Positions 4,220 to 24,611 of a stretch of 24,611 nt of DNA are shown in pieces; within the stretch, counting starts at the first letter, position 1, and every line of letters starts with the position of its first letter. The DNA lies in IMG/VR virus record IMGVR_UViG_3300009320_000115, positions 1-24,611 of that record. One strand, given 5' to 3'. Position numbers and translations under genes: made by a program. The DNA is from a virus. The notes below the pieces were generated by a model that did not search any database, was not told the DNA's origin, and was given only the letters and a program-made list of their open reading frames with translations.

Positions 4220-4627
4220 ATGGCAACAGACGTAATTCTCGGTAAAGCAATGACGTTAACGTACGATTCGAAAGTGATCGCACGTTGTACCGATTTCACC
4301 CTGGAAGTAAACAAAGAACCGATCGATATTACGACCCTCCAGTCGAGCGGGTGGAAGGAAAAGAAAGTCGACCTTAAGGAATGGTCGGTCTCCTTTAACG
4401 GACTCGTTACCCGCGGCGCGGACGGAACTTACTCGGTATACGACGAGTTACTCGCGGATATCCTGGGAACCGATACCGCGATTACGATATCGATCGACGA
4501 TACCGACGGATCGGGTACGATCGCGGTCGGAGGAGACGTATTCTTAACCTCCCTCTCGACGGGCGTAACCGTCGGAGATAAGGTTACCTATTCGGGAACC
4601 CTGGAGGGAACGGGCGCGCTCGCGTAA
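4220..4627 (+). CDS. Major tail tube protein (short copy)
   Basis: This 135-residue protein is a probable tail tube subunit of the TP901-1/phi13 type. It begins Met-Ala-Thr-Asp-Val and holds the typical Cys-Thr-Asp-Phe-Thr-Leu-Glu, an Asp-Ile-Thr-Thr-Leu loop near residue 36, and a Val-Ser-Phe-Asn-Gly-Leu strand near 55. It closes with Thr-Tyr-Ser-Gly-Thr-Leu-Glu-Gly-Thr-Gly. It precedes the tail assembly chaperone and tape measure, the standard order. A clear longer paralogue lies at 11487-12677 with the same first and last blocks. The short copy is the likely bulk tube protein because of its canonical position and the strong hairpin behind it. Confidence 0.88.
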   Translation: MATDVILGKAMTLTYDSKVIARCTDFTLEVNKEPIDITTLQSSGWKEKKVDLKEWSVSFNGLVTRGADGTYSVYDELLADILGTDTAITISIDDTDGSGTIAVGGDVFLTSLSTGVTVGDKVTYSGTLEGTGALA

Positions 4628-11486: not shown

Positions 11487-12677
11487 ATGGCAACCGATGT
11501 AAAATTATCAAGCGAGTTTACGATTATATACGGCGGAGAAGTAATCGCATATTGTACCGATTTCACTCTCGAAAAGAACAAAGAGATAATCGATATTACC
11601 AAACTCGGGGACACCTGGAAAAATAAAAAGGTCGACACGAAAGATTTTAACGTTTCCTTTAACGGAATGATTACCCGAGGGGATACCGTTACCGCGTCCC
11701 TTTGGAACGTCGCGACCGCTTATACGGTTGGGCAATACGTTGTTCTCGCGGGTAAAGCATGGGAGGCGCAAGGCAGTACAACGGGAGATAACCCAACAAC
11801 GGACGACGGTACGAATTGGCTCGAGACCTCCGCCTGGTCCGCGGCAACGACATACGCGGCGGGAGATATGGTATACATAACCTCGGTTGAACAGGAGACC
11901 AGGATATATAAATCCCTCCAGGGATCCAATCTTAACCAGAATCCGTTAACGGAGACGGCGTACTGGGAACGCCTGACCACGAATTACGAGTCTCTGTTAA
12001 ATGAACTCAAAAACAACGATACCGAGGTACTTTGTACGATTAAGCCAACGGCGGAGGGAGAAACCTATTATTATGGAAATGGAGTTTTAACCTCCCTTTC
12101 CGCGTCGATTACGCAAGGGGATAAGGCGACGTTCTCGGGGTCCTTTGAGGGGTCGGGCGAACTGAGTGCAATATGCGACGAATACGGGTCTGAACTTTAC
12201 GATCATTCCAACGCGATAGCGGATCCGAACGGAAGCGAAGCAAATGCGACAACGGGTTGGACCGACGTAGGATTAAACGGAACAGGAGCAAACGTTTTTG
12301 AATCCCAAAGCTCAGTAGTAAACGAGGGAACATACGCTTTTCACTTTAACTCAAACGATACCCCTACCTCGGGAGCAAGATTATACATCGATTTAGAGGC
12401 CCTGGGAATATCGGTCGACGATGAGGTAAAAATCGAAATCGATGTTAGACACATTGGAACGGGGGGAACCTGGACTGTTACCCGCGCGCAACAAACAAAC
12501 CTAACATCAGGGGAAACATCGATACAAGATATTAGCGTCGGAGAAACTACGTTCCAAACCATTGAGGTAGAATATACCCAAACTGCAAATACTCGATATT
12601 TCGGATTCAGGGAGGCGAGCGGAACAAACAACGGAGGTTTGTATGTCGATAACCTCTCTATTAAAGTGAAAGTTTAA
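11487..12677 (+). CDS. Second tail-tube protein with carbohydrate-binding domains
   Basis: This 396-residue protein is a paralogue of the short tail tube at 4220-4627. Residues 1-70 match its first half (both start Met-Ala-Thr-Asp-Val and hold Cys-Thr-Asp-Phe-Thr-Leu-Glu, Asp-Ile-Thr and Val-Ser-Phe-Asn-Gly). Residues about 165-225 match its second half, ending Phe-Ser-Gly-Ser-Phe-Glu-Gly-Ser-Gly. Between them lie two CBM5/12-like repeats with Trp, Ala-x-x-Tyr-x-x-Gly-x-x-Val and Trp. After residue 225 comes an extra beta domain (about 170 residues) resembling carbohydrate-binding jelly rolls. It is placed among fibre genes. It may decorate the tube or form a tail-tip ring that binds glycans. 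The binding role is inferred from domain patterns. Confidence 0.8.
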   Translation: MATDVKLSSEFTIIYGGEVIAYCTDFTLEKNKEIIDITKLGDTWKNKKVDTKDFNVSFNGMITRGDTVTASLWNVATAYTVGQYVVLAGKAWEAQGSTTGDNPTTDDGTNWLETSAWSAATTYAAGDMVYITSVEQETRIYKSLQGSNLNQNPLTETAYWERLTTNYESLLNELKNNDTEVLCTIKPTAEGETYYYGNGVLTSLSASITQGDKATFSGSFEGSGELSAICDEYGSELYDHSNAIADPNGSEANATTGWTDVGLNGTGANVFESQSSVVNEGTYAFHFNSNDTPTSGARLYIDLEALGISVDDEVKIEIDVRHIGTGGTWTVTRAQQTNLTSGETSIQDISVGETTFQTIEVEYTQTANTRYFGFREASGTNNGGLYVDNLSIKVKV

Positions 12678-12686
12678 TCGTACAAT

Positions 12687-13031
12687 ATGGATACATATAT
12701 TCAGGGCGAAAGCATCGAACTAACGATCCCCGTTGTTGACGGGAGCGGCGACGCCGTCGATCTTAGCGGGATCGATACAATAGCCGTCGAGATATTTCAT
12801 AGAATCTATAAATCAGTACTCAAATCGGGTACTTATGCAGGGGGGGAGGTCACAAGCGCGGATCTCTCGACGGGGCAATTAAAGATCCATATAGAGGACG
12901 GGTTAACCGCCGCGGCTCAAACAGGGATATATAATTACCTGGTAACCCTTACTCAAACAGATGCTGGCTTTGATGATGACACTAATACCAGTAAAGCTAA
13001 AGATGCTGCCTTTAAACTTGTAGAGAAATGA
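12687..13031 (+). CDS. BppU-like N-terminal domain protein
   Basis: This 114-residue protein resembles the N-terminal domain of lactococcal-phage BppU-type baseplate proteins. It starts with Tyr-Ile-Gln-Gly-Glu-Ser-Ile-Glu-Leu-Thr-Ile-Pro-Val-Val-Asp, then Val-Asp-Leu-Ser-Gly and a strand Ile-Ala-Val-Glu-Ile. In BppU this domain anchors a receptor-binding part to the tail. Here it stands alone and is followed with a 4-bp overlap (ATGA) by the deacetylase lipoprotein. The last 25 codons use GCT, GAT and AAA much more than the rest, suggesting a recombination joint near 12955. Confidence 0.65.
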   Translation: MDTYIQGESIELTIPVVDGSGDAVDLSGIDTIAVEIFHRIYKSVLKSGTYAGGEVTSADLSTGQLKIHIEDGLTAAAQTGIYNYLVTLTQTDAGFDDDTNTSKAKDAAFKLVEK

Positions 13032-15034
13032 GACTTTTTATAAGTATATTATTGATTCTGTTTTTTGTCTCCGCCTCCTGTCAAACAGGCATCAAATCGG
13101 GAACGACGGCGGACTCGGGAACCATAACGACAGGAACGACGGCGGACTCGGGAACCATAACGACGGGAACGACGGCGGACTCGGGAACCATAACGACGGG
13201 AACGACGACAGAATCGGGAACCATTACAACGGGAACAACAACTCTCGGAGCGGTATTTACAGATATCGCGGTTGCTAATTACTATATGAAAGGGGGATAT
13301 TTTCAGCGTATCGACGATCCAATGCTCGGAGACGGTTATTCGGATTCGGTTTATCAAAGACAGAACATAGATACAACCTTAATGATTTGCGAGTCTCACG
13401 ATATTGATAAAATTACATGGGCCGTTGTTACGGAATACCATTTTATCAGCGGGGATACGATCGAACCGTATTCGGGTTTTATGCCTCACAGAGTAACACA
13501 ATTAAACAGACTGGTAAACGCGGGACATCAAATCGCGAATCATTCTGTAAATCATTCGTCAAATTATTATATCTCTCATATTGACAGTTTATGGTCGGAG
13601 GACTCGATACTGGTCGCGGATGGATACGACATATCGGACGGGGTTGACACAATTATTATTAACGACTCGGATACGGCGTTATATACCTGGTACTGGAAGC
13701 ACCAGCCCGACGACCATTACGCCCTCGGAGCCGCGCGAAGGATTATCGATAAGGACGACGATATCGATTCAATTTATATGTACGCGGCCCTCCCCCCGAG
13801 ATCTGTATTTATCGCAACGTATCCAAATCGGTGGGGATTGAAACGTATTATCGACGTATGGAATTACCGCGCGGGACTTGTCGGTTTACCCGAAACGCAT
13901 TTCTTTATAATGCCTGGTCAAGATTATTACCAGGTCGTCGGGATCGATACCCTGTTAAAAGAGGCGAGCGGGTACGTAGAAACGGCGGTCGGGGAGGATA
14001 CGGTAATATTTCACGTTCAAGAGGCATGGAGTTCTAAACCGTACGTAGTTAACAACTATAACAACAACTGGCTCTCAATAGGACCAGGAGATCGGTATCA
14101 AATCGATTATAACGACGTTACGGAGATAGACGATACGACGTTTCATTTCTATTTAACAGGATACACAGGAGACGGGAATAATCACGACGCGGACCTGGTT
14201 CCAAACAAAGGAACTGACTGGATGTGGCAGGTCGAACCCGATACCTTACTCGCCTTACGAGATTCGTTCCCCGATATTCAGGGGTCCTTATACCCCGCGG
14301 GGCGTCAATATATGTCAAAAGGGTATTTTCCTAAATCGGAGGACCAGAAGTTCCCGCAACGGGACAACGACGTATTTATGGACGACGATCACGCGACCGC
14401 GAAACACTCAATCGCGCTCGTCCTGGACGCCGCGTTAAAGCATTATTTTATTGCATCGGATGAACACGGAGGATTTCAGGGGGGATACGCGCGGGTCGAT
14501 AGTTTTTATAATTTCATTATGAACGAACCGTATATTACCACGTATTCGAACCATGATTTACTCGAGAATATGTACTCCGCCGTACCTGACTCCTCGCAAA
14601 ATATTGTCCCTTCAATGGATTTTGATCTAAACGAGGACGACGTATCGGACGCCTGGGAACTGGTCGGGTCCCCGACCTGGTCCACGCTCCCGAGTTCAAT
14701 CGAAAGCACGAATAAATATTTCGAATGTGACGAGAGTAATTACCTGGATAATACTAATATTTGGGCAGTCTCTCCAGGGGTGAATCGTCTTAGCCTCTGG
14801 TTACAAAACGTCGACTCCGACTCTGTAATGGTAGAATTAACGGAACATAGATACCGAGCGAATACCAGTAACCAAACTTACAAAGTATATATCGAGGAGA
14901 AATTCGAACCCGATAGTACATTTACGGAGTATTATTTCGATAGGACCGTCCCGTCGACGACTGATTATATTGATATCAAAATACAACCGTTCGGGGGAAC
15001 CTGTAACGTTGCGAACGTTAAATTTAATCAATGA
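13028..15034 (+). CDS. Lipoprotein-type polysaccharide deacetylase (NodB-like)
   Basis: This 668-residue protein starts with a basic Met-Arg, a hydrophobic core and Ser-Ala-Ser-Cys18-Gln, a signal peptide with a Bacteroidota-type lipidation site. Residues about 25-70 are four 11-residue repeats (Gly-Thr-Thr-Ala-Asp-Ser-Gly-Thr-Ile-Thr-Thr). A NodB-like domain follows: Asp96-Asp97 fits the first motif, and Gly-His-Gln-Ile-Ala-Asn-His172-Ser-Val-Asn-His176 fits the zinc-binding HxxxH motif. The family removes acetyl groups from glycans such as peptidoglycan or capsule. The C-terminal 130 residues look like a beta-sandwich, possibly a CBM. It is odd for a virion protein to carry a signal peptide, so it may be displayed on the infected cell. 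A virion role cannot be excluded. Confidence 0.72.
   Translation: MRLFISILLILFFVSASCQTGIKSGTTADSGTITTGTTADSGTITTGTTADSGTITTGTTTESGTITTGTTTLGAVFTDIAVANYYMKGGYFQRIDDPMLGDGYSDSVYQRQNIDTTLMICESHDIDKITWAVVTEYHFISGDTIEPYSGFMPHRVTQLNRLVNAGHQIANHSVNHSSNYYISHIDSLWSEDSILVADGYDISDGVDTIIINDSDTALYTWYWKHQPDDHYALGAARRIIDKDDDIDSIYMYAALPPRSVFIATYPNRWGLKRIIDVWNYRAGLVGLPETHFFIMPGQDYYQVVGIDTLLKEASGYVETAVGEDTVIFHVQEAWSSKPYVVNNYNNNWLSIGPGDRYQIDYNDVTEIDDTTFHFYLTGYTGDGNNHDADLVPNKGTDWMWQVEPDTLLALRDSFPDIQGSLYPAGRQYMSKGYFPKSEDQKFPQRDNDVFMDDDHATAKHSIALVLDAALKHYFIASDEHGGFQGGYARVDSFYNFIMNEPYITTYSNHDLLENMYSAVPDSSQNIVPSMDFDLNEDDVSDAWELVGSPTWSTLPSSIESTNKYFECDESNYLDNTNIWAVSPGVNRLSLWLQNVDSDSVMVELTEHRYRANTSNQTYKVYIEEKFEPDSTFTEYYFDRTVPSTTDYIDIKIQPFGGTCNVANVKFNQ
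13100..13240 (+). repeat. 33-bp tandem repeat, four units plus a partial unit
   Basis: Units start at 13100, 13133, 13166 and 13199, each with ggaacgacggcggactcggg or a close form. The first three are almost identical, the fourth has several changes, and a partial fifth follows. Each unit codes 11 residues, so gain or loss of units keeps the reading frame. Confidence 0.92.
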
Positions 15035-17253: not shown

Positions 17254-18501
17254 ATGACAAAACGCCGCGATAACCTTAATTACTCGTATAACATATACCA
17301 GGAGATCCAGGGGATCCCCAAAACCTCCGACCTGGGAGAGCGGGTAAACATATTCCTAACTGAACTTAATAAGATCTCGCGAATCGTTGACATAACCTTA
17401 CGGTTTACCCCCTCGAGGAACTTTGTTTACTTTAACGCTAATCAACTCCAGGCCCTTTTAAGTCATATCCGATACAAATCCGTAATCCAGGATCTCCAGG
17501 ATAAAGGGGTAATAAGACGAGCTCCTGTTAAATCGAAGTTCCAAACGTTGTTGTATTGTTTCGATCCCCTGTTTATGGATCCGATCGAGACGGGCGTTAA
17601 GATCCGAAACCTCAAAGTACGAAACGGCGTTCGGCGTTACCTCGGGATCCAACAAGACACGGTCGATAAAAACGTCCTCTCCTGGACGCGATCGTCCCTC
17701 CTGGAAACTAAGATCCTGGTAACCGAGGAGATCTTTTTCTCGGACCTGGAGGATAAGTACCGTATTTACCGCCGTTCTAAAACGCTCCAGGGATTGAAGT
17801 ATAAGAACTTCGATAACTACCTGGAGGATCTCGCGAGGAACTATTTCTCTGTTCGGCACTATCAGCAACTCGATAAACAGGAGCGGTCCAGGTACATTAA
17901 ACAGGATACGTTCTCGGGTCGGATCTATACGATCGCGACGGGCGTTCCGAAATGGGTCCGATCGTATGTTCGGATCCAGGGCGAACCTCTCGCGGAAATA
18001 GATATGAGGGCGACACACCCGTACCTTTTATTTCACATCCTGAAAAATACCGACTATATACGTTTCCTTTGGGAGACAACCCTCTCAGGAAAGGATATTT
18101 ACGAGGCGTACGGGGAAAGGATAGGGATAACCGACAGAGCCGCGGTCAAATACCGCTTTTTACGGTCGATCTATGGTCGGATGAATAGTAAGTACTACAA
18201 AGAGTTCAAACAACAGTTTCCCGAGGCGGGTAAAGTAATCGATAATATCAAAACGCGGAACGTACCAGGCAACCCGAGCAAAAAGGGATCATATACGAAC
18301 CTCGCTTATAAAATAATGAATAAGGAGGTTAAGTTATTTCGTAAGGTATGGGAGGGAATGTACCTCGCGGAGATCCCTTTCCTCCCGATCCACGACGGGA
18401 TACTCGTACCCGCCTCGAGGTTATCCGAGTCTCGGGTCCTTATGGAACAGATAATAAAGCGATCGATACCAATAGTACAAACGAGTTTTAGATTCTTGTA
18501 G
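17254..18501 (+). CDS. Minimal family-A polymerase palm protein
   Basis: This 415-residue protein shows the three polymerase motifs of DNA polymerase I / T7 RNA polymerase palms. Motif A is Glu-Ile-Asp250-Met-Arg-Ala-Thr-His255-Pro. Motif B is Arg295-x3-Lys299-x3-Leu-x3-Tyr307-Gly308, the exact spacing of the Klenow O helix. Motif C is Ile-His380-Asp381-Gly382. Asp250 and Asp381 would bind the metals. A Gly-Arg-Ile-Tyr-Thr block (near 220) precedes motif A as in this family. There is no 3'-5' exonuclease domain. The first 150 residues may hold a winged-helix domain. The steric-gate position is His, not the Glu of DNA polymerases, and position 762 (Klenow numbering) is Leu. The product made and template used are unknown. 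It heads an operon of small unknown genes. Confidence 0.72.
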   Translation: MTKRRDNLNYSYNIYQEIQGIPKTSDLGERVNIFLTELNKISRIVDITLRFTPSRNFVYFNANQLQALLSHIRYKSVIQDLQDKGVIRRAPVKSKFQTLLYCFDPLFMDPIETGVKIRNLKVRNGVRRYLGIQQDTVDKNVLSWTRSSLLETKILVTEEIFFSDLEDKYRIYRRSKTLQGLKYKNFDNYLEDLARNYFSVRHYQQLDKQERSRYIKQDTFSGRIYTIATGVPKWVRSYVRIQGEPLAEIDMRATHPYLLFHILKNTDYIRFLWETTLSGKDIYEAYGERIGITDRAAVKYRFLRSIYGRMNSKYYKEFKQQFPEAGKVIDNIKTRNVPGNPSKKGSYTNLAYKIMNKEVKLFRKVWEGMYLAEIPFLPIHDGILVPASRLSESRVLMEQIIKRSIPIVQTSFRFL

Positions 18502-20467: not shown

Positions 20468-21523
20468 ATGATAGTAAAAGAAAAAAAGGGAGGGCAATTT
20501 TTTGAATTAATAAAAGGGGATTGCCTTATTGAAAACGAACATATAGAAGATGGAAGTGTTGACCTTATTTTAACTGATTTGCCTTATGGTAATATGAAAA
20601 CCATTAAAAATCCACAAAGACCTAAAAGTTGGGGAAAAGAAGGTTATTTAGGTTGGGACAATGTTATTGATACAAATGAGATTTATAAGATAGCAAATAG
20701 AATACTACGTAAAAATGGTAAGATGATTTTATTTGCGCAACAACCTTTTACAACTGAACTAATAAATAAAGCAATACTCAATATACCATTTAGTTATTCT
20801 ATGATTTGGGAGAAAAATGACTTTGCAAATTGCTTGCTTGCTAAAAAAGCACCTGTAAGTTATTTTGAAGATATTTTGATTTATAGTAAAGACCAATGTT
20901 ACACTTCTAAGCATCCTTTAAGAGAAATAATGCTAACTTACGTTGAGCAATATGGAAAAGATTATTTGATTAACTTATTTTTAAAAGAAGGGAGATATAC
21001 AAGCGAACTTTCTGCAAGAGTACACGCTTCTTATAAATTTGCTTTTAATAAAGGAATGCGATTCGATTTAATGGATTATAAGCTATATGAATTTTTATCT
21101 AAGCATATAGAATTTAAACACACTTATCAATGGTTGCAAAGTATAGATATTGAATATAAGAATAAGTTTGCAAGCGTCTTTAACCTTTGGGAAGGTAAAA
21201 AATACAAAAGCAATATTCTGAAATATAAAAAGGATTATGGTGGACACCACCCAACTCAAAAACCTGTTTTATTGCTTGAAGATTTAATAAAGACCTTTAG
21301 CAATAAAAATGATTTAGTAGTTGATTTGACTATGGGAAGCGGAAGCACAGGAGTAGCAGCAATGAATACAAACCGCAATTTTATAGGTATTGAAAAAGAC
21401 GACAAATATTTTAATATAGCAGTAAACAGAATTAAAGGGACTGAACCAAACCACAACAACTTTGAAAAAGTTGAGGCGTGGGGGCTTTTTTCTTTTACGG
21501 ATGATACGCAGAAAGCTGATTAA
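20468..21523 (+). CDS. DNA methyltransferase, beta-class (N4/N6 type)
   Basis: This 351-residue enzyme probably moves a methyl group from S-adenosylmethionine to adenine N6 or cytosine N4 in DNA. The catalytic motif IV is Thr-Asp37-Leu-Pro-Tyr40-Gly near the N-terminus. The AdoMet site is at the C-terminus: Val-Asp286-Leu-Thr-Met-Gly-Ser-Gly-Ser-Thr-Gly, then Phe-Ile-Gly-Ile-Glu-Lys. Catalytic motif first and AdoMet motif last is the beta-class order. The segment His-His-Pro-Thr-Gln-Lys-Pro precedes the AdoMet site as usual. Residues about 130-235 are the likely target-recognition part. Base composition differs sharply from the phage genes, so it was acquired. No restriction enzyme gene is adjacent. 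The target sequence cannot be predicted. Confidence 0.9.
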   Translation: MIVKEKKGGQFFELIKGDCLIENEHIEDGSVDLILTDLPYGNMKTIKNPQRPKSWGKEGYLGWDNVIDTNEIYKIANRILRKNGKMILFAQQPFTTELINKAILNIPFSYSMIWEKNDFANCLLAKKAPVSYFEDILIYSKDQCYTSKHPLREIMLTYVEQYGKDYLINLFLKEGRYTSELSARVHASYKFAFNKGMRFDLMDYKLYEFLSKHIEFKHTYQWLQSIDIEYKNKFASVFNLWEGKKYKSNILKYKKDYGGHHPTQKPVLLLEDLIKTFSNKNDLVVDLTMGSGSTGVAAMNTNRNFIGIEKDDKYFNIAVNRIKGTEPNHNNFEKVEAWGLFSFTDDTQKAD

Positions 21524-21543
21524 AAGCACGAATGTAGCACTTG

Positions 21544-21600
21544 CAGCTAACGGTTTGTATATACGCCTGTGCTTGTATGGCGTATATACATTGTTAGCTG
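21544..21600. repeat. Imperfect inverted repeat resembling an integron attC site
   Basis: CAGCTAAC (21544-21551) pairs with GTTAGCTG (21593-21600). TGTATATACGCC (21556-21567) pairs with GGCGTATATACA (21579-21590). The unpaired spacers are 4 and 2 nt and the loop 11 nt. This R-spacer-L-loop-L-spacer-R layout with AAC and GTT ends is the attC plan, and it sits 20 bp behind a gene stop, as in cassettes. No T-run follows, so it is a poor terminator. Confidence 0.6.
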
Positions 21601-21645
21601 ACGAAGTGAACTGTTATTATTAAAAGAAAAAAAGCGATGGCAAAT

Positions 21646-21653
21646 TATTTTTG
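21646..21653 (+). promoter_or_regulatory. Possible -7 box before the second methyltransferase
   Basis: TATTTTTG fits TAnnTTTG, 23 bp before the ATG. No clear TTTG lies at the right distance upstream, so this is a weak candidate. Confidence 0.3.
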
Positions 21654-21676
21654 CAAAAAATAAAACTTTATAAATT

Positions 21677-22345
21677 ATGAGTAAGATAGAAATAACAAAC
21701 GAAGATAATATGAAACTAATGGCAAGGTATGAAGATAATTACTTTGACCTTGCTATTGTAGACCCACCTTATGGTATTGATGCTGGTTTTGGCAGTGGAA
21801 AAAATATGCGCAAAAGAATAAAAGACGGAAAAATGAAAGGCTCTGATTGGGATAGTGAAACACCTAAAAAAGAATATTGGGATGAATTATTTAGAGTTAG
21901 TAAAAACCAAATTGTTTGGGGAGGAAATTATATGACTTCTTTTTTAAAAGAAAGTAAAGGATGGATATTTTGGGATAAAATACAAACATCTGATAATCAT
22001 TCTGATGGCGAATTAGCTTGGACTTCTTTTCAAAAAAGATTGAGAATGTTTAAATATTGTTGGGCTGGAAATATATATGGATTTCAGGGAAGTATTGAGG
22101 GTGCGGGTAAAAAATCTATTAGAATACACCCAACTGAAAAACCAGTAAAATTATACGAATGGCTTTTAGATGAATATGCAGAAAAAGGCAATAAAATAAT
22201 TGATACTCATTTAGGAAGTGGAAGCATTGCGATTGCCTGCCATAATAGAGGTTTTGATTTAGTTGCTTGCGAATTAGACGAAGACTATTGTAAACAAGCC
22301 TTAAAACGGCTTAAAACGCACCAACAACAACTGACAATGTTTTAG
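21677..22345 (+). CDS. DNA adenine-type methyltransferase, beta-class
   Basis: This 222-residue enzyme has Asp29-Pro-Pro-Tyr32-Gly (motif IV) at the N-terminus. Asp176-Thr-His-Leu-Gly-Ser-Gly-Ser (AdoMet site) and Cys-Glu-Leu-Asp-Glu-Asp-Tyr lie at the C-terminus, with His-Pro-Thr-Glu-Lys-Pro between. It also holds Phe-Arg-Val-Ser-Lys-Asn-Gln-Ile-Val-Trp-Gly-Gly-Asn-Tyr, common in small methyltransferases carried by Bacteroidota phages. The recognition part is short, so the target is probably short. Its codon use is as AT-rich as the first methyltransferase, which it follows by about 150 bp. It is only distantly similar to that gene, so it is not a recent duplicate. No cognate nuclease is seen. 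Confidence 0.9.
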   Translation: MSKIEITNEDNMKLMARYEDNYFDLAIVDPPYGIDAGFGSGKNMRKRIKDGKMKGSDWDSETPKKEYWDELFRVSKNQIVWGGNYMTSFLKESKGWIFWDKIQTSDNHSDGELAWTSFQKRLRMFKYCWAGNIYGFQGSIEGAGKKSIRIHPTEKPVKLYEWLLDEYAEKGNKIIDTHLGSGSIAIACHNRGFDLVACELDEDYCKQALKRLKTHQQQLTMF

Positions 22346-22411
22346 AGTATGAGTGGGTGGCAAAAAAAATATTGTACATAACGAGGATATATAAACCTTA
22401 CGGATAAAAGC

Positions 22412-22618
22412 ATGGAATACGTTAAAAGCATTTTACAAAGGGCCTGGAATATAAACGCGGACGATATGGAGTATATGAAGGTCGGATCTCCTGAACTCGA
22501 GGAGGCTTTTAAAAAGCAAAAGGAGATCGAGGACGCGATCGAAAAACTTAACTCGAAAGGATTACCCGAACATATTAACCAGGCCCTAAACGAGGGCGAC
22601 GGAACTTATCGTCCTTAA
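22412..22618 (+). CDS. Small acidic helical protein
   Basis: This 68-residue protein is back in phage codon style (gcg, gac, gag, ctc). It is mostly helical and acidic: a first helix Val-Lys-Ser-Ile-Leu-Gln-Arg-Ala-Trp, then Leu-Glu-Glu-Ala-Phe-Lys-Lys-Gln-Lys-Glu-Ile-Glu-Asp-Ala-Ile-Glu-Lys-Leu. No family is recognised. It is the last rightward gene and ends just before a bidirectional terminator. A role in the operon interrupted by the methyltransferase island is likely. Confidence 0.65.
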   Translation: MEYVKSILQRAWNINADDMEYMKVGSPELEEAFKKQKEIEDAIEKLNSKGLPEHINQALNEGDGTYRP

Positions 22619-22625
22619 ATGAAAG

Positions 22626-22652
22626 AAAAGGGATCCGAGCGGGTCCCTTTTT
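22626..22652. terminator. Bidirectional terminator between convergent operons
   Basis: AAAAGGGATCC (22626-22636) pairs with GGGTCCCTTTT (22641-22651) around GAGC, allowing one G-T pair. A T-run follows on the plus strand, and the A-run at the left arm gives a T-run on the minus strand. It overlaps the stop of the leftward gene. Confidence 0.8.
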
Positions 22653-22872
22653 ATTTACCTGGTCCTCGACGAAAACGGATTTCCCCTTTCTCCTCCTCGA
22701 GGACCTTTTTACGATAACTGGGAGGCGTATTGACATGAACAGCCTTAAAAAGTTTCACAGCGGCCCGATAAGTACGTACCGATATCCCTCCATTTACTGA
22801 AAGCGTCTCGAGATATTCGTCGATTTGCTCCTGAGACATACTTTCCAGGGCCATTTTTAAGAGATCTGCCAT
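22651..22872 (-). CDS. Unknown 73-residue protein, last gene of the leftward operon
   Basis: Translation most likely starts at the ATG at 22872, which overlaps the previous stop (TAATG) and has a GAGAGGAGG-like Shine-Dalgarno 5' to it. A start 8 codons upstream is less supported. The protein has two helices (Met-Ser-Gln-Glu-Gln-Ile-Asp-Glu-Tyr-Leu and Val-Arg-Thr-Tyr-Arg-Ala-Ala-Val-Lys-Leu-Phe) and a basic C-terminus. No family is recognised. Small terminases occur near HNH genes, but the length and pattern do not support that call. Confidence 0.6.
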   Translation of the reverse strand: MADLLKMALESMSQEQIDEYLETLSVNGGISVRTYRAAVKLFKAVHVNTPPSYRKKVLEEEKGEIRFRRGPGK

Positions 22873-23108
22873 TAACGCCTCCTCTCCCCTTTCCAAATGA
22901 GAAAGGCCGTATATAAGCCTAAAAAGAGGTTATTTTCCTTTATCATTTTTAACTGATCGTTTGCGGCCTTATAAGCCTCCTCCAGAAAAGCGAGATTTTG
23001 GTTTACCTGGAGGAGATTGTCGTTCGATTCGCTTAACGCCTTGCGGAGGTTGCGGATCTCGATTAATAGGGCCTTTTTCGGTACGACCTCTCGGGTTTTG
23101 TTGCTCAT
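22872..23108 (-). CDS. Coiled-coil protein with C-terminal membrane segment
   Basis: This 78-residue protein is helical with heptad-like spacing (Leu-Leu-Ile-Glu-Ile-Arg-Asn-Leu-Arg-Lys-Ala-Leu) through residue 60. A short hydrophobic segment (Leu-Phe-Leu-Gly-Leu-Tyr-Thr-Ala-Phe-Leu-Ile-Trp) and a basic end follow. It overlaps the HNH gene by 4 bp (ATGA). A spanin or other envelope role is possible but unproven; no family is recognised. Confidence 0.62.
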   Translation of the reverse strand: MSNKTREVVPKKALLIEIRNLRKALSESNDNLLQVNQNLAFLEEAYKAANDQLKMIKENNLFLGLYTAFLIWKGERRR

Positions 23109-23461
23109 GGTTTGCGTTTATGAATGTTCTTTAATCCGTAATTGTATATCGCGCCCTTTTTCCCCTTGCGGCCCTTTGTTGCGGTCTCTCGAGAGTGACA
23201 AGTCTTACAAAGGGATTCCAGGTTATCGTATTCCAGGGCAAGGTCGGGGCGAATATCGACCTCATGGATATGGTGAACGTCGATAGCAGGGACGACGATA
23301 TTACGCTCCTGGCAACGTTCGCAAAAGGGATCCTCCGCGAGTTTAAGGGACCTTAACCGTCTCCAGGCGGGAGAGGTATAAAAGGAGTTCATAGTCGCGT
23401 AATGGAAAGGACCCTTTTTCGGGGGATCCTGGATCCAAAATAGTTTAACTTTTTCGCTCAC
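23105..23461 (-). CDS. HNH endonuclease
   Basis: This 118-residue protein has an HNH core. Two pairs, Cys47-Glu-Arg-Cys50 and Cys85-Lys-Thr-Cys88-His89, form the zinc site. Asp62-Val-His-His64-Ile-His66 is the first strand with the catalytic His, and Asn80-Leu-Glu-Ser-Leu follows. The stretch Phe-Tyr-Thr-Ser-Pro-Ala-Trp-Arg-Arg-Leu-Arg (about 27-37) is a common lead-in of phage HNH proteins that assist packaging. The GTG start at 23461 overlaps the upstream stop (GTGA); an ATG start at Met24 just before this lead-in is an alternative. It is the only clear nuclease in the window. Confidence 0.85.
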   Translation of the reverse strand: MSEKVKLFWIQDPPKKGPFHYATMNSFYTSPAWRRLRSLKLAEDPFCERCQERNIVVPAIDVHHIHEVDIRPDLALEYDNLESLCKTCHSRETATKGRKGKKGAIYNYGLKNIHKRKP

Positions 23462-23628
23462 CTTTTTACAGTATAAGGAGTTTTACATTTAAAGCAGTCC
23501 TTTCCGAAATGGAGATCCCTTTCCTCGATAGGATCGAAGTAAGTACCCTCGTTCGGGTTGAACTCAATACCGACCATATCGCAATCGGGATTGTTACATT
23601 CGATTAACTTACGCTTGTCCTGGTTCAT
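23458..23628 (-). CDS. Small zinc-ribbon protein
   Basis: This 56-residue reading frame starts at the ATG complementary to 23626-23628. It overlaps the end of the sigma-like gene by 20 bp and its TGA overlaps the HNH GTG start. Cys11-Asn-Asn-Pro-Asp-Cys16 and Cys45-Phe-Lys-Cys48 form two zinc-binding knuckles. The middle has Phe-Asp-Pro-Ile-Glu-Glu-Arg. The tight overlaps on both sides and the Cys pattern support a real gene. Its partner or target is unknown; a transcription or DNA-binding helper is plausible. Confidence 0.7.
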   Translation of the reverse strand: MNQDKRKLIECNNPDCDMVGIEFNPNEGTYFDPIEERDLHFGKDCFKCKTPYTVKR

Positions 23629-23977
23629 CCTGTTCAATAATTTTGGTTATCTTCTTTTTAAAGTCTCTCCGCCTGTTCGACGATACCAAGTAATTAACCG
23701 TCGCGTTACGGATCTTTATATATAGATAGTTCTTAATCGATCGGATCCCGTTACCCTGGTTCTCAAAGCCTGGTATAACCTTTAAGTATAATTCCTGTTT
23801 AAGATCCTTTAAGAACTCCTCGTCCTCCCGATGGATCCTTAAGGTTAAAAAGACGCCGTTTATCATATCCTCGATAAAGGGTTGTATGTCGTCTCGGAAT
23901 ACTCGGGAACGTTCGGGATCCGTCTCCTCGAGGCTTTTATATAGGCTTATCCCCTCAATTAACCTTTGTTGATCCAT
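23609..23977 (-). CDS. Sigma-70 region-2-like protein
   Basis: This 122-residue protein resembles region 2 of sigma-70 factors. Residues about 52-67 (Glu-Asp-Glu-Glu-Phe-Leu-Lys-Asp-Leu-Lys-Gln-Glu-Leu-Tyr-Leu-Lys) fit the first helices that bind the RNA polymerase beta' clamp. A Phe-Glu-Asn-Gln-Gly loop follows. Residues about 80-103 (Ile-Lys-Asn-Tyr-Leu-Tyr-Ile-Lys-Ile-Arg-Asn, then Asn-Arg-Arg-Arg) fit the -10-binding helix. Region 4 is absent, as in T4 gp55-type late sigma factors. It is the second gene of a leftward operon. A function as late-gene activator is an inference. Confidence 0.6.
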   Translation of the reverse strand: MDQQRLIEGISLYKSLEETDPERSRVFRDDIQPFIEDMINGVFLTLRIHREDEEFLKDLKQELYLKVIPGFENQGNGIRSIKNYLYIKIRNATVNYLVSSNRRRDFKKKITKIIEQDEPGQA

Positions 23978-24114
23978 AAGCAGTATATAATAAATAGAAC
24001 GAACTGTATACAGTAATACAATAGTATAAAGACAAACCGCGCGAGATCTTTAGTCCTCTCCTCCTCGTTATCGTAACGATTCAGGGTAAAAGGTTTATCT
24101 AATATCTTACACAT
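23959..24114 (-). CDS. Small single-span membrane protein
   Basis: This 51-residue protein starts at the ATG complementary to 24112-24114. A longer reading frame reaches 24240, but its extra 42 codons run through the intergenic repeat and have odd Cys-rich content, so the inner start is preferred. Residues 1-25 are polar and acidic (Asn-Glu-Glu-Glu-Arg-Thr-Lys-Asp-Leu). The C-terminal half is one hydrophobic span rich in Phe, Ile and Tyr. It overlaps the sigma-like gene by 19 bp. The function is unknown. Confidence 0.5.
   Translation of the reverse strand: MCKILDKPFTLNRYDNEEERTKDLARFVFILLYYCIQFVLFIIYCLWINKG
24005..24017. repeat. 13-bp repeat, copy 1
   Basis: TGTATACAGTAAT is repeated exactly at 24151-24163. 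It contains the palindrome CTGTATACAG together with the preceding base. It lies inside the small membrane-protein gene in a different reading phase from the other copy. Confidence 0.6.
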
Positions 24115-24129
24115 AACCCGCGGCGTTTG

Positions 24130-24163
24130 TATATAGCAAATGTAATGCGATGTATACAGTAAT
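24130..24163. promoter_or_regulatory. Leftward operon promoter region with 13-bp repeat, copy 2
   Basis: TGTATACAGTAAT (24151-24163) repeats the word at 24005. Next to it, the minus strand reads ATTTGCTATATA (24141-24130), the same 12-mer that lies in the candidate promoter at 17129-17140. It is 16 bp upstream of the membrane-protein ATG. It is a possible operator plus promoter, though no full TAnnTTTG box is seen. Confidence 0.4.
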
Positions 24164-24205
24164 CCGATACAGGTTATTAACAGGCCCGAGAGCCTAATAC
24201 AAAAC

Positions 24206-24237
24206 AAAAAAGCGCGGCAACCCGCGTACCGCGCGGC
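24206..24237 (-). terminator. Leftward intrinsic terminator 1
   Basis: On the minus strand GCGCGG (24234-24229) pairs with CCGCGC (24217-24212) and is followed by six T residues (24211-24206). It stops transcripts coming from the right before the sigma operon. Confidence 0.75.
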
Positions 24238-24254
24238 CACTGGAGGTTTTCAAC

Positions 24255-24279
24255 AAAAAAAAAGTTCGTCCAAAGGACG
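24255..24279 (-). terminator. Leftward intrinsic terminator 2
   Basis: On the minus strand CGTCC, loop TTT, GGACG (24279-24267) is followed by AAC and nine T residues (24263-24255). Together with the terminator at 24206 it forms a tandem stop for a transcript from the right-end region, which has no clear gene. Confidence 0.8.
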
Positions 24280-24371
24280 GTAAGTACTGTACTGTCTTTT
24301 AGTAAGTGTACGTACGCAAAAAAAAAGAAAGGGAAAAGGAGAAAAAGGAAAACAACTCTCTCTCACAACAA

Positions 24372-24446
24372 CGGGGCAACAGGTCGAGACTTGTTCGGAG
24401 ATAACCCCTCTCGGGTTATCCTGAACAACAAGACCGCAAGGCCCCG
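24372..24446. repeat. 75-nt imperfect hairpin with four helices
   Basis: CGGGGC (24372-24377) pairs with GCCCCG (24441-24446). GGTC (24382-24385) pairs with GACC (24432-24435). TTGTTCGG (24391-24398) pairs with CTGAACAA (24421-24428, one G-T pair). GATAACCC (24400-24407) pairs with GGGTTATC (24413-24420). A single A bulge (24399) separates the last two helices, and CTCTC is the loop. Either strand can form it. Confidence 0.8.
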
Positions 24447-24481
24447 ACGTACTGAAAAAAATTTTGCCGAAAGTTTTTCCG

Positions 24482-24517
24482 AATCGACCAGGTGGTAACC
24501 TGTTTCGGGCGTCGATT
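24482..24517. repeat. Nested stem with inner hairpin
   Basis: AATCGAC (24482-24488) pairs with GTCGATT (24511-24517). Directly stacked inside is CAGGT (24489-24493) with ACCTG (24498-24502) around GGTA, leaving an 8-nt bulge on the 3' side. Confidence 0.7.
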
Positions 24518-24581
24518 GTCTTTAATGGGTACGAAAGGTACAGGTAAGGTACAGTTTGTAACGTTTTAAGGAAGGGGGGGG

Positions 24582-24589
24582 TATTTTTG
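24582..24589 (+). promoter_or_regulatory. Possible rightward -7 box at the window end
   Basis: TATTTTTG fits TAnnTTTG; a TTTG lies 23 bp upstream (24555-24558), slightly farther than usual. It could drive genes beyond the window. Confidence 0.35.
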
Positions 24590-24611
24590 CACAAGGGGAC
24601 CCCCTACAAAC

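Follow-up and report, generated by a model that had tools for sequence, protein, structure and literature searches.

A stable stem-loop of 75 nt in a gene-free segment beside the probable right cos end of a phage chromosome

The gene-free segment and its stem-loop

The DNA analysed here (the window) is the complete IMG/VR record IMGVR_UViG_3300009320_000115, 24,611 bp in length. It carries rightward HK97-type head genes (protease and capsid) together with further rightward genes and, near its right end, a leftward cluster that includes an HNH gene at 23105-23461 (PF01844, 9.6e-11) and a gene with weak resemblance to sigma region 2 (E 0.0038, under the curated cut-off). This report is concerned with the segment to the right of that cluster, positions 24280-24611, and in particular with a very stable 75-nt stem-loop inside it. 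From sequence comparison we consider it very probable that the segment is the right-terminal untranslated control segment next to the cohesive end site (cos), at which packaging cuts the DNA, in the linear chromosome of an HK97-type cos phage. A preliminary description had read the segment without this context, as a dedicated leftward noncoding RNA of about 300 nt; as the comparison places the segment at a cos end, that reading is incomplete. Its observations hold for the most part, among them that no gene is left there. No convincing gene was found, and the only long open frame, 114 aa on the minus strand (24594-24250), spans the region with a non-genic codon score of -0.26 and crosses a terminator hairpin, so that a protein-coding reading was rejected. 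Codon scores of the genes range from +0.05 to +0.45, two AT-rich methylases excepted.

The stem-loop had been described as four helices and is present at exactly 24372-24446 (CGGGGC...GCCCCG). As RNA the plus strand folds at -40.6 kcal/mol (z -6.63) and the minus strand at -37.3 kcal/mol (z -4.82), a stability that was matched by 0 of 200 shuffles for either strand. Among all 75-nt windows of the record (step 10) it ranks first in stability on either strand, and the best 75-nt windows across 150 shuffles of the region reached only -32.5 (plus) and -30.1 (minus). Folded as DNA, the two strands gave z values of -4.8 and -3.8. One pair of the stem-loop is G.U on the plus strand and C.A on the minus strand; the strand of action could be either. 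A second nested stem that had been proposed at 24481-24517 (no strand) folds at chance level, with z values of -1.2 (plus) and -1.6 (minus) and shuffles that did as well in 23/200 and 14/200 cases. Once the 75-nt element is left out, the remaining region shows no excess of structure over shuffled sequence (z -0.7 to +0.05).

No Rfam family matched at the gathering score and the relaxed threshold returned chance hits only. A pattern scan for the hairpin core picked out five contigs that are otherwise dissimilar, and these were judged to be chance matches. The contigs of the nearest relatives stop short of their right ends. In several relatives that are more distant, the vicinity of the right end holds a rightward terminator-like hairpin instead, and the relatives whose contigs bridge the ends have no comparable stem-loop there. 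The stem-loop is an orphan element within the cos-proximal segment.

The window end as a probable cos end

Four contigs (L002, L003, L004 and L014) belong to the same species as the window, with a DNA identity of 99.7-99.9%, and so does L013, whose TerL is a 100% match. Same-species contigs supply the left-side genes absent from the window, namely terS (Terminase_4), a few small genes, TerL and a gene that we call portal-like from its position and size. Terminase_4, TerL_ATPase and TerL_nuclease were all found in L013, where terS begins 115 nt inside the contig, and the contig offsets imply a genome of ~29.5 kb (24611 + 4857 + short gap). Several features of an HK97-type cos system are present: defined ends just upstream of terS, a small and a large terminase, and an HNH protein.

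L013 starts with CAACCGCGTATATTTTTTCC, begins 31 nt before a G8-TAT motif and carries AAGGGGGGGGTAT at L013:29-41. The same 13 nt occur as a direct match on the plus strand of the window at 24572-24584, which makes this the right copy of a paired G-rich end motif and a probable packaging signal; its G run begins 38 nt before the window end. A capsid-alignment scan returned 80 loci, diverged relatives included. Independent contigs of several groups have a G-rich motif upstream of HNH or terS and begin 30-32 nt left of it. By pattern, the motif stands 31-33 nt inside 11/77 free contig ends, those of L013 and L017 among them, compared to 0.14 expected, and at 0 of the opposite ends. The contigs that start at the motif-defined point are L041, L047, L051, L056, L042, L046, L090, L034, L054, L026, L022, L017 and L013, where L047 and L056 fit the start pattern by eye and L017 has 57% capsid identity and a terS match from position 94. 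In the bridging contigs (L032, L036, L045, L052, L053, L057 and L094) the G-rich motif has a second one on its left at a distance of 77-80 nt, and a similar motif pair was detected in L019 and, across the record joint, in the isolate phi39:1.

In the bridging relatives the distance from G8 to the left-end base is 47-49 nt, whereas in the window the G8 run is followed by its end after 38 nt. With the two contigs placed end to end, the motifs of the window and L013 would be 68 nt apart, so ~10-12 nt would be missing between the contigs; as estimated from motif spacing, this missing piece may be a short overhang. Position 24611 is hence the probable right cos end, and the right edge of the stem-loop stops 165 bp short of it. 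What weighs against a cos end is that the window end has no direct overlap with L013, that neither reads nor contigs connect them, and that they come from different assemblies; for this reason the joint was deduced from the motif spacing.

Promoter, terminators and repeats

A candidate promoter of the Bacteroidota type, TTTG-N23-TATTTTTG, is predicted on the plus strand at 24555-24589 and points towards cos and terS. It agrees with the -33/-7 consensus (PMC7366714, PMC2483708) at 10/10 positions, a score reached by 0/300 shuffles, with a spacer of 23 that is the widest permitted in the scan. As it faces across cos to terS, a message would be possible only once the ends have been joined. The G8 end motif falls within the promoter spacer. 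Binding of the small terminase and initiation of transcription could therefore exclude each other at this site. Repeated GTACAG half-sites (24538-24555, starts at 24538 and 24549, no strand) may have an operator-like function.

On the other side of the stem-loop, the long pyrimidine tract reported for the minus strand was recovered beyond chance as an uninterrupted purine run of 35 nt on the plus strand (24318-24352). It is the sole run of at least 20 in the record, and the maximum over 200 shuffles was 22. The tandem leftward terminators of the preliminary description exist as sequence; their hairpins beat shuffles by a modest margin at best. The minus-strand site at 24255-24279 consists of a 5-pair stem (24279-24267) followed by AACTTTTTTTTT with its T9 tail (an A9 run on the plus strand at 24255) and has a z of -2.5. 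The site at 24212-24234, also on the minus strand, has an 8-pair stem (24234-24212) followed by TTTTTTGTTT, and its hairpin alone is no better than shuffles (z -0.4). Over both strands of 22300-24611 we counted 8 terminator-like sites, with 3.2 expected.

Between the terminators and the purine run lie half-sites GTACTGTACTG (TACTGTACTG) at 24284-24294 (no strand), which resemble operator repeats and might serve as operators. ACTGTA occurs 8 times in the record, and 5 of these matches fall within the final 662 nt, where 0.22 would be expected. A direct repeat of 41 nt (76% identical) is located at 23983-24023 and 24129-24169, upstream of the two outermost leftward open reading frame (ORF) starts (23977 and 24114), and each copy contains the palindrome TGTATACA, found nowhere else in the window. 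Judging by these sequences, the two copies are probably operators of one regulator.

Other features of the window

Two DNA methylase genes (20468-22345) stand out from the other genes by an AT-rich composition (33-40% GC) and by codon scores below zero; both are probably recent arrivals. Two ORFs have a stretch of 145 nt in common (4272-4416 and 11539-11680, 70% DNA identity), a duplicated protein domain that is probably of the tail type. The ORF at 13028-15034 has N-terminal tandem TTADSGTITTG peptide repeats and then a weak polysaccharide-deacetylase-like stretch. For the 415-aa ORF at 17254-18501 we obtained no Pfam match and a weak match to phrog_4756, whose function is not known, while polymerase-like motifs (DMRATHPYL, HDGI) were noticed by eye. 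The search for tRNA and tmRNA genes found none. Viral contigs searched for the sigma-like gene and for terS, and genome contigs searched for the sigma-like gene and for TerL, gave nothing outside the same species, and the HNH scan gave distant HNH genes only. The host group is probably Bacteroidota.

Possible roles of the stem-loop

The stem-loop, the pyrimidine tract and the two leftward terminators follow one another in an order that suits a leftward RNA. We suggest that the single most likely role of the stem-loop, though one that falls short of probable, is to form the body of an untranslated leftward RNA of ~250-300 nt. Such an RNA would start near 24520-24560, run through the stem-loop and end at the tandem terminators (24255 or 24206). 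The two terminator-like sites would shut the segment off from the leftward cluster with its HNH and sigma-region-2-like genes, and this cluster has operator-like repeats of its own upstream. The rightward candidate promoter at the right G8 motif would read across the joined cos into terS. Taken as a whole, this combination of a cos-proximal control segment and a leftward RNA carrying the stem-loop is our best explanation of the locus, and we put it forward tentatively.

The layout proposed in the preliminary description (stem-loop, pyrimidine tract, terminators and no gene) is thus present, but several results count against a leftward RNA. The best score for a promoter on the minus strand was 8/10, which about one third of the shuffles reached as well, and a phage-specific leftward promoter is possible. 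The plus strand of the stem-loop is better folded than the minus strand. With a purine fraction of 0.578 the plus strand of the region is like the rightward gene block (0.552, sd 0.037) and differs from the leftward cluster, whose plus strand has a fraction of 0.455 (sd 0.035). The terminator hairpins are modest, no homologue of the stem-loop was found, a search for DNA similarity in phages gave nothing, and no target above the null was found for antisense pairing to gene starts.

Some of these observations would suit a rightward RNA. Here the stem-loop would belong to a plus-strand transcript with its start near the half-operator at 24285, which could be a short RNA or else the late message with a long leader. 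Within this transcript the stem-loop would influence stability, processing or read-through in cis, like the HK022 put RNA. The pair that is G.U on the plus strand and C.A on the minus strand, the purine richness shared with the rightward genes and the similarity of the half-sites at 24284-24294 to operator repeats all agree with such a transcript. However, the sole good rightward promoter (24555) is to the right of the stem-loop, the terminators face leftward and Rfam has no match, and we regard a rightward RNA as unlikely. The element could also work as DNA, for example in packaging beside cos or in replication of the end. Its distance of 165 bp from the cos end and a DNA fold that beats shuffles on both strands speak for this, but the recognition site of HK97 (-80 to +472) does not extend as far to the left of the cut as the stem-loop lies (PMC11331095) and the bridging relatives do without such a stem-loop near their right ends; a role as DNA seems unlikely to us as well.

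It is rather more doubtful that the terminators and the stem-loop form an insulator only, which stops stray leftward transcription from the cos and terS side without any specific RNA. The tandem terminators are located just upstream of the leftward cluster, which itself has operator-bearing upstream repeats, and relatives have a terminator of opposite direction near the same end; an elaborate 75-nt stem-loop lacking a T tail would nevertheless be superfluous for that task. A replication origin with hairpins and repeats, which had been offered as the alternative to a noncoding RNA, found little in its favour beyond the short GTAC-containing repeats on both sides of the stem-loop. These repeats are short and degenerate only, there is no clear switch in GC skew and no recognised replication gene is nearby, which makes an origin very improbable.

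Should an RNA indeed be made there, it would be a rare noncoding gene for such a phage. That a dedicated structured RNA 165 bp from the cos end acts in packaging, or in timing the joining of the ends and the switching on of terS, is a highly speculative idea; if true, it would give an RNA part to a packaging system of a kind not known to use one. More generally, the analysis gives an orphan stem-loop a defined position, just within the probable right cos end of what is probably a Bacteroidota phage. The results further indicate that contigs assembled from metagenomes can terminate at physical phage ends, that a pair of G-rich motifs ~80 nt apart marks such ends across diverged phages, and that a promoter overlapping the G motif would couple terS transcription to the joining of the ends.

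Comparison with known systems

The HK022 putRNA resembles the stem-loop in its size of ~70-75 nt, its stability and its occurrence in a tailed phage. Its defining layout is a pair of neighbouring stem-loops that follow an early promoter, whereas here we observed one nested stem-loop and no promoter above chance to its left. In phi29 a structured RNA gene, that of the packaging RNA (pRNA), is located 141 bp from the terminal repeat (PMC6266182) and thus near a chromosome end, and the stem-loop described here has a similar position. The packaging machine of phi29 is a different one, however, and the stem-loop matches no family in Rfam.

Cellulophaga phage phi39:1 (NC_021804) has a related capsid (25%), a similar gene order, a similar genome size and, as described above, the G-rich motif pair across its record joint. 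In contrast to the window all of its genes are rightward and a gene-free segment of 330 nt is absent; 47 nt separate the end of its last gene from that of the record.

Parallels also exist with the cos region of HK97, which has a 10-nt 3' overhang, a minimal small-terminase site within the left end (+15 to +29) that is helped by an A-tract, and a recognition site within the limits given above (PMC11331095). The present phage shares with HK97 an HNH gene and, at the left end, a terS gene close to the cut as well as an A/T tract ~10-20 nt inwards, and the estimated ~10-12 nt missing between the contig ends would be similar in length to the HK97 overhang. It differs in the paired G-rich motif that flanks the cut, in an HNH gene that is part of a leftward cluster, and in a right side that carries a candidate promoter and the 75-nt stem-loop.
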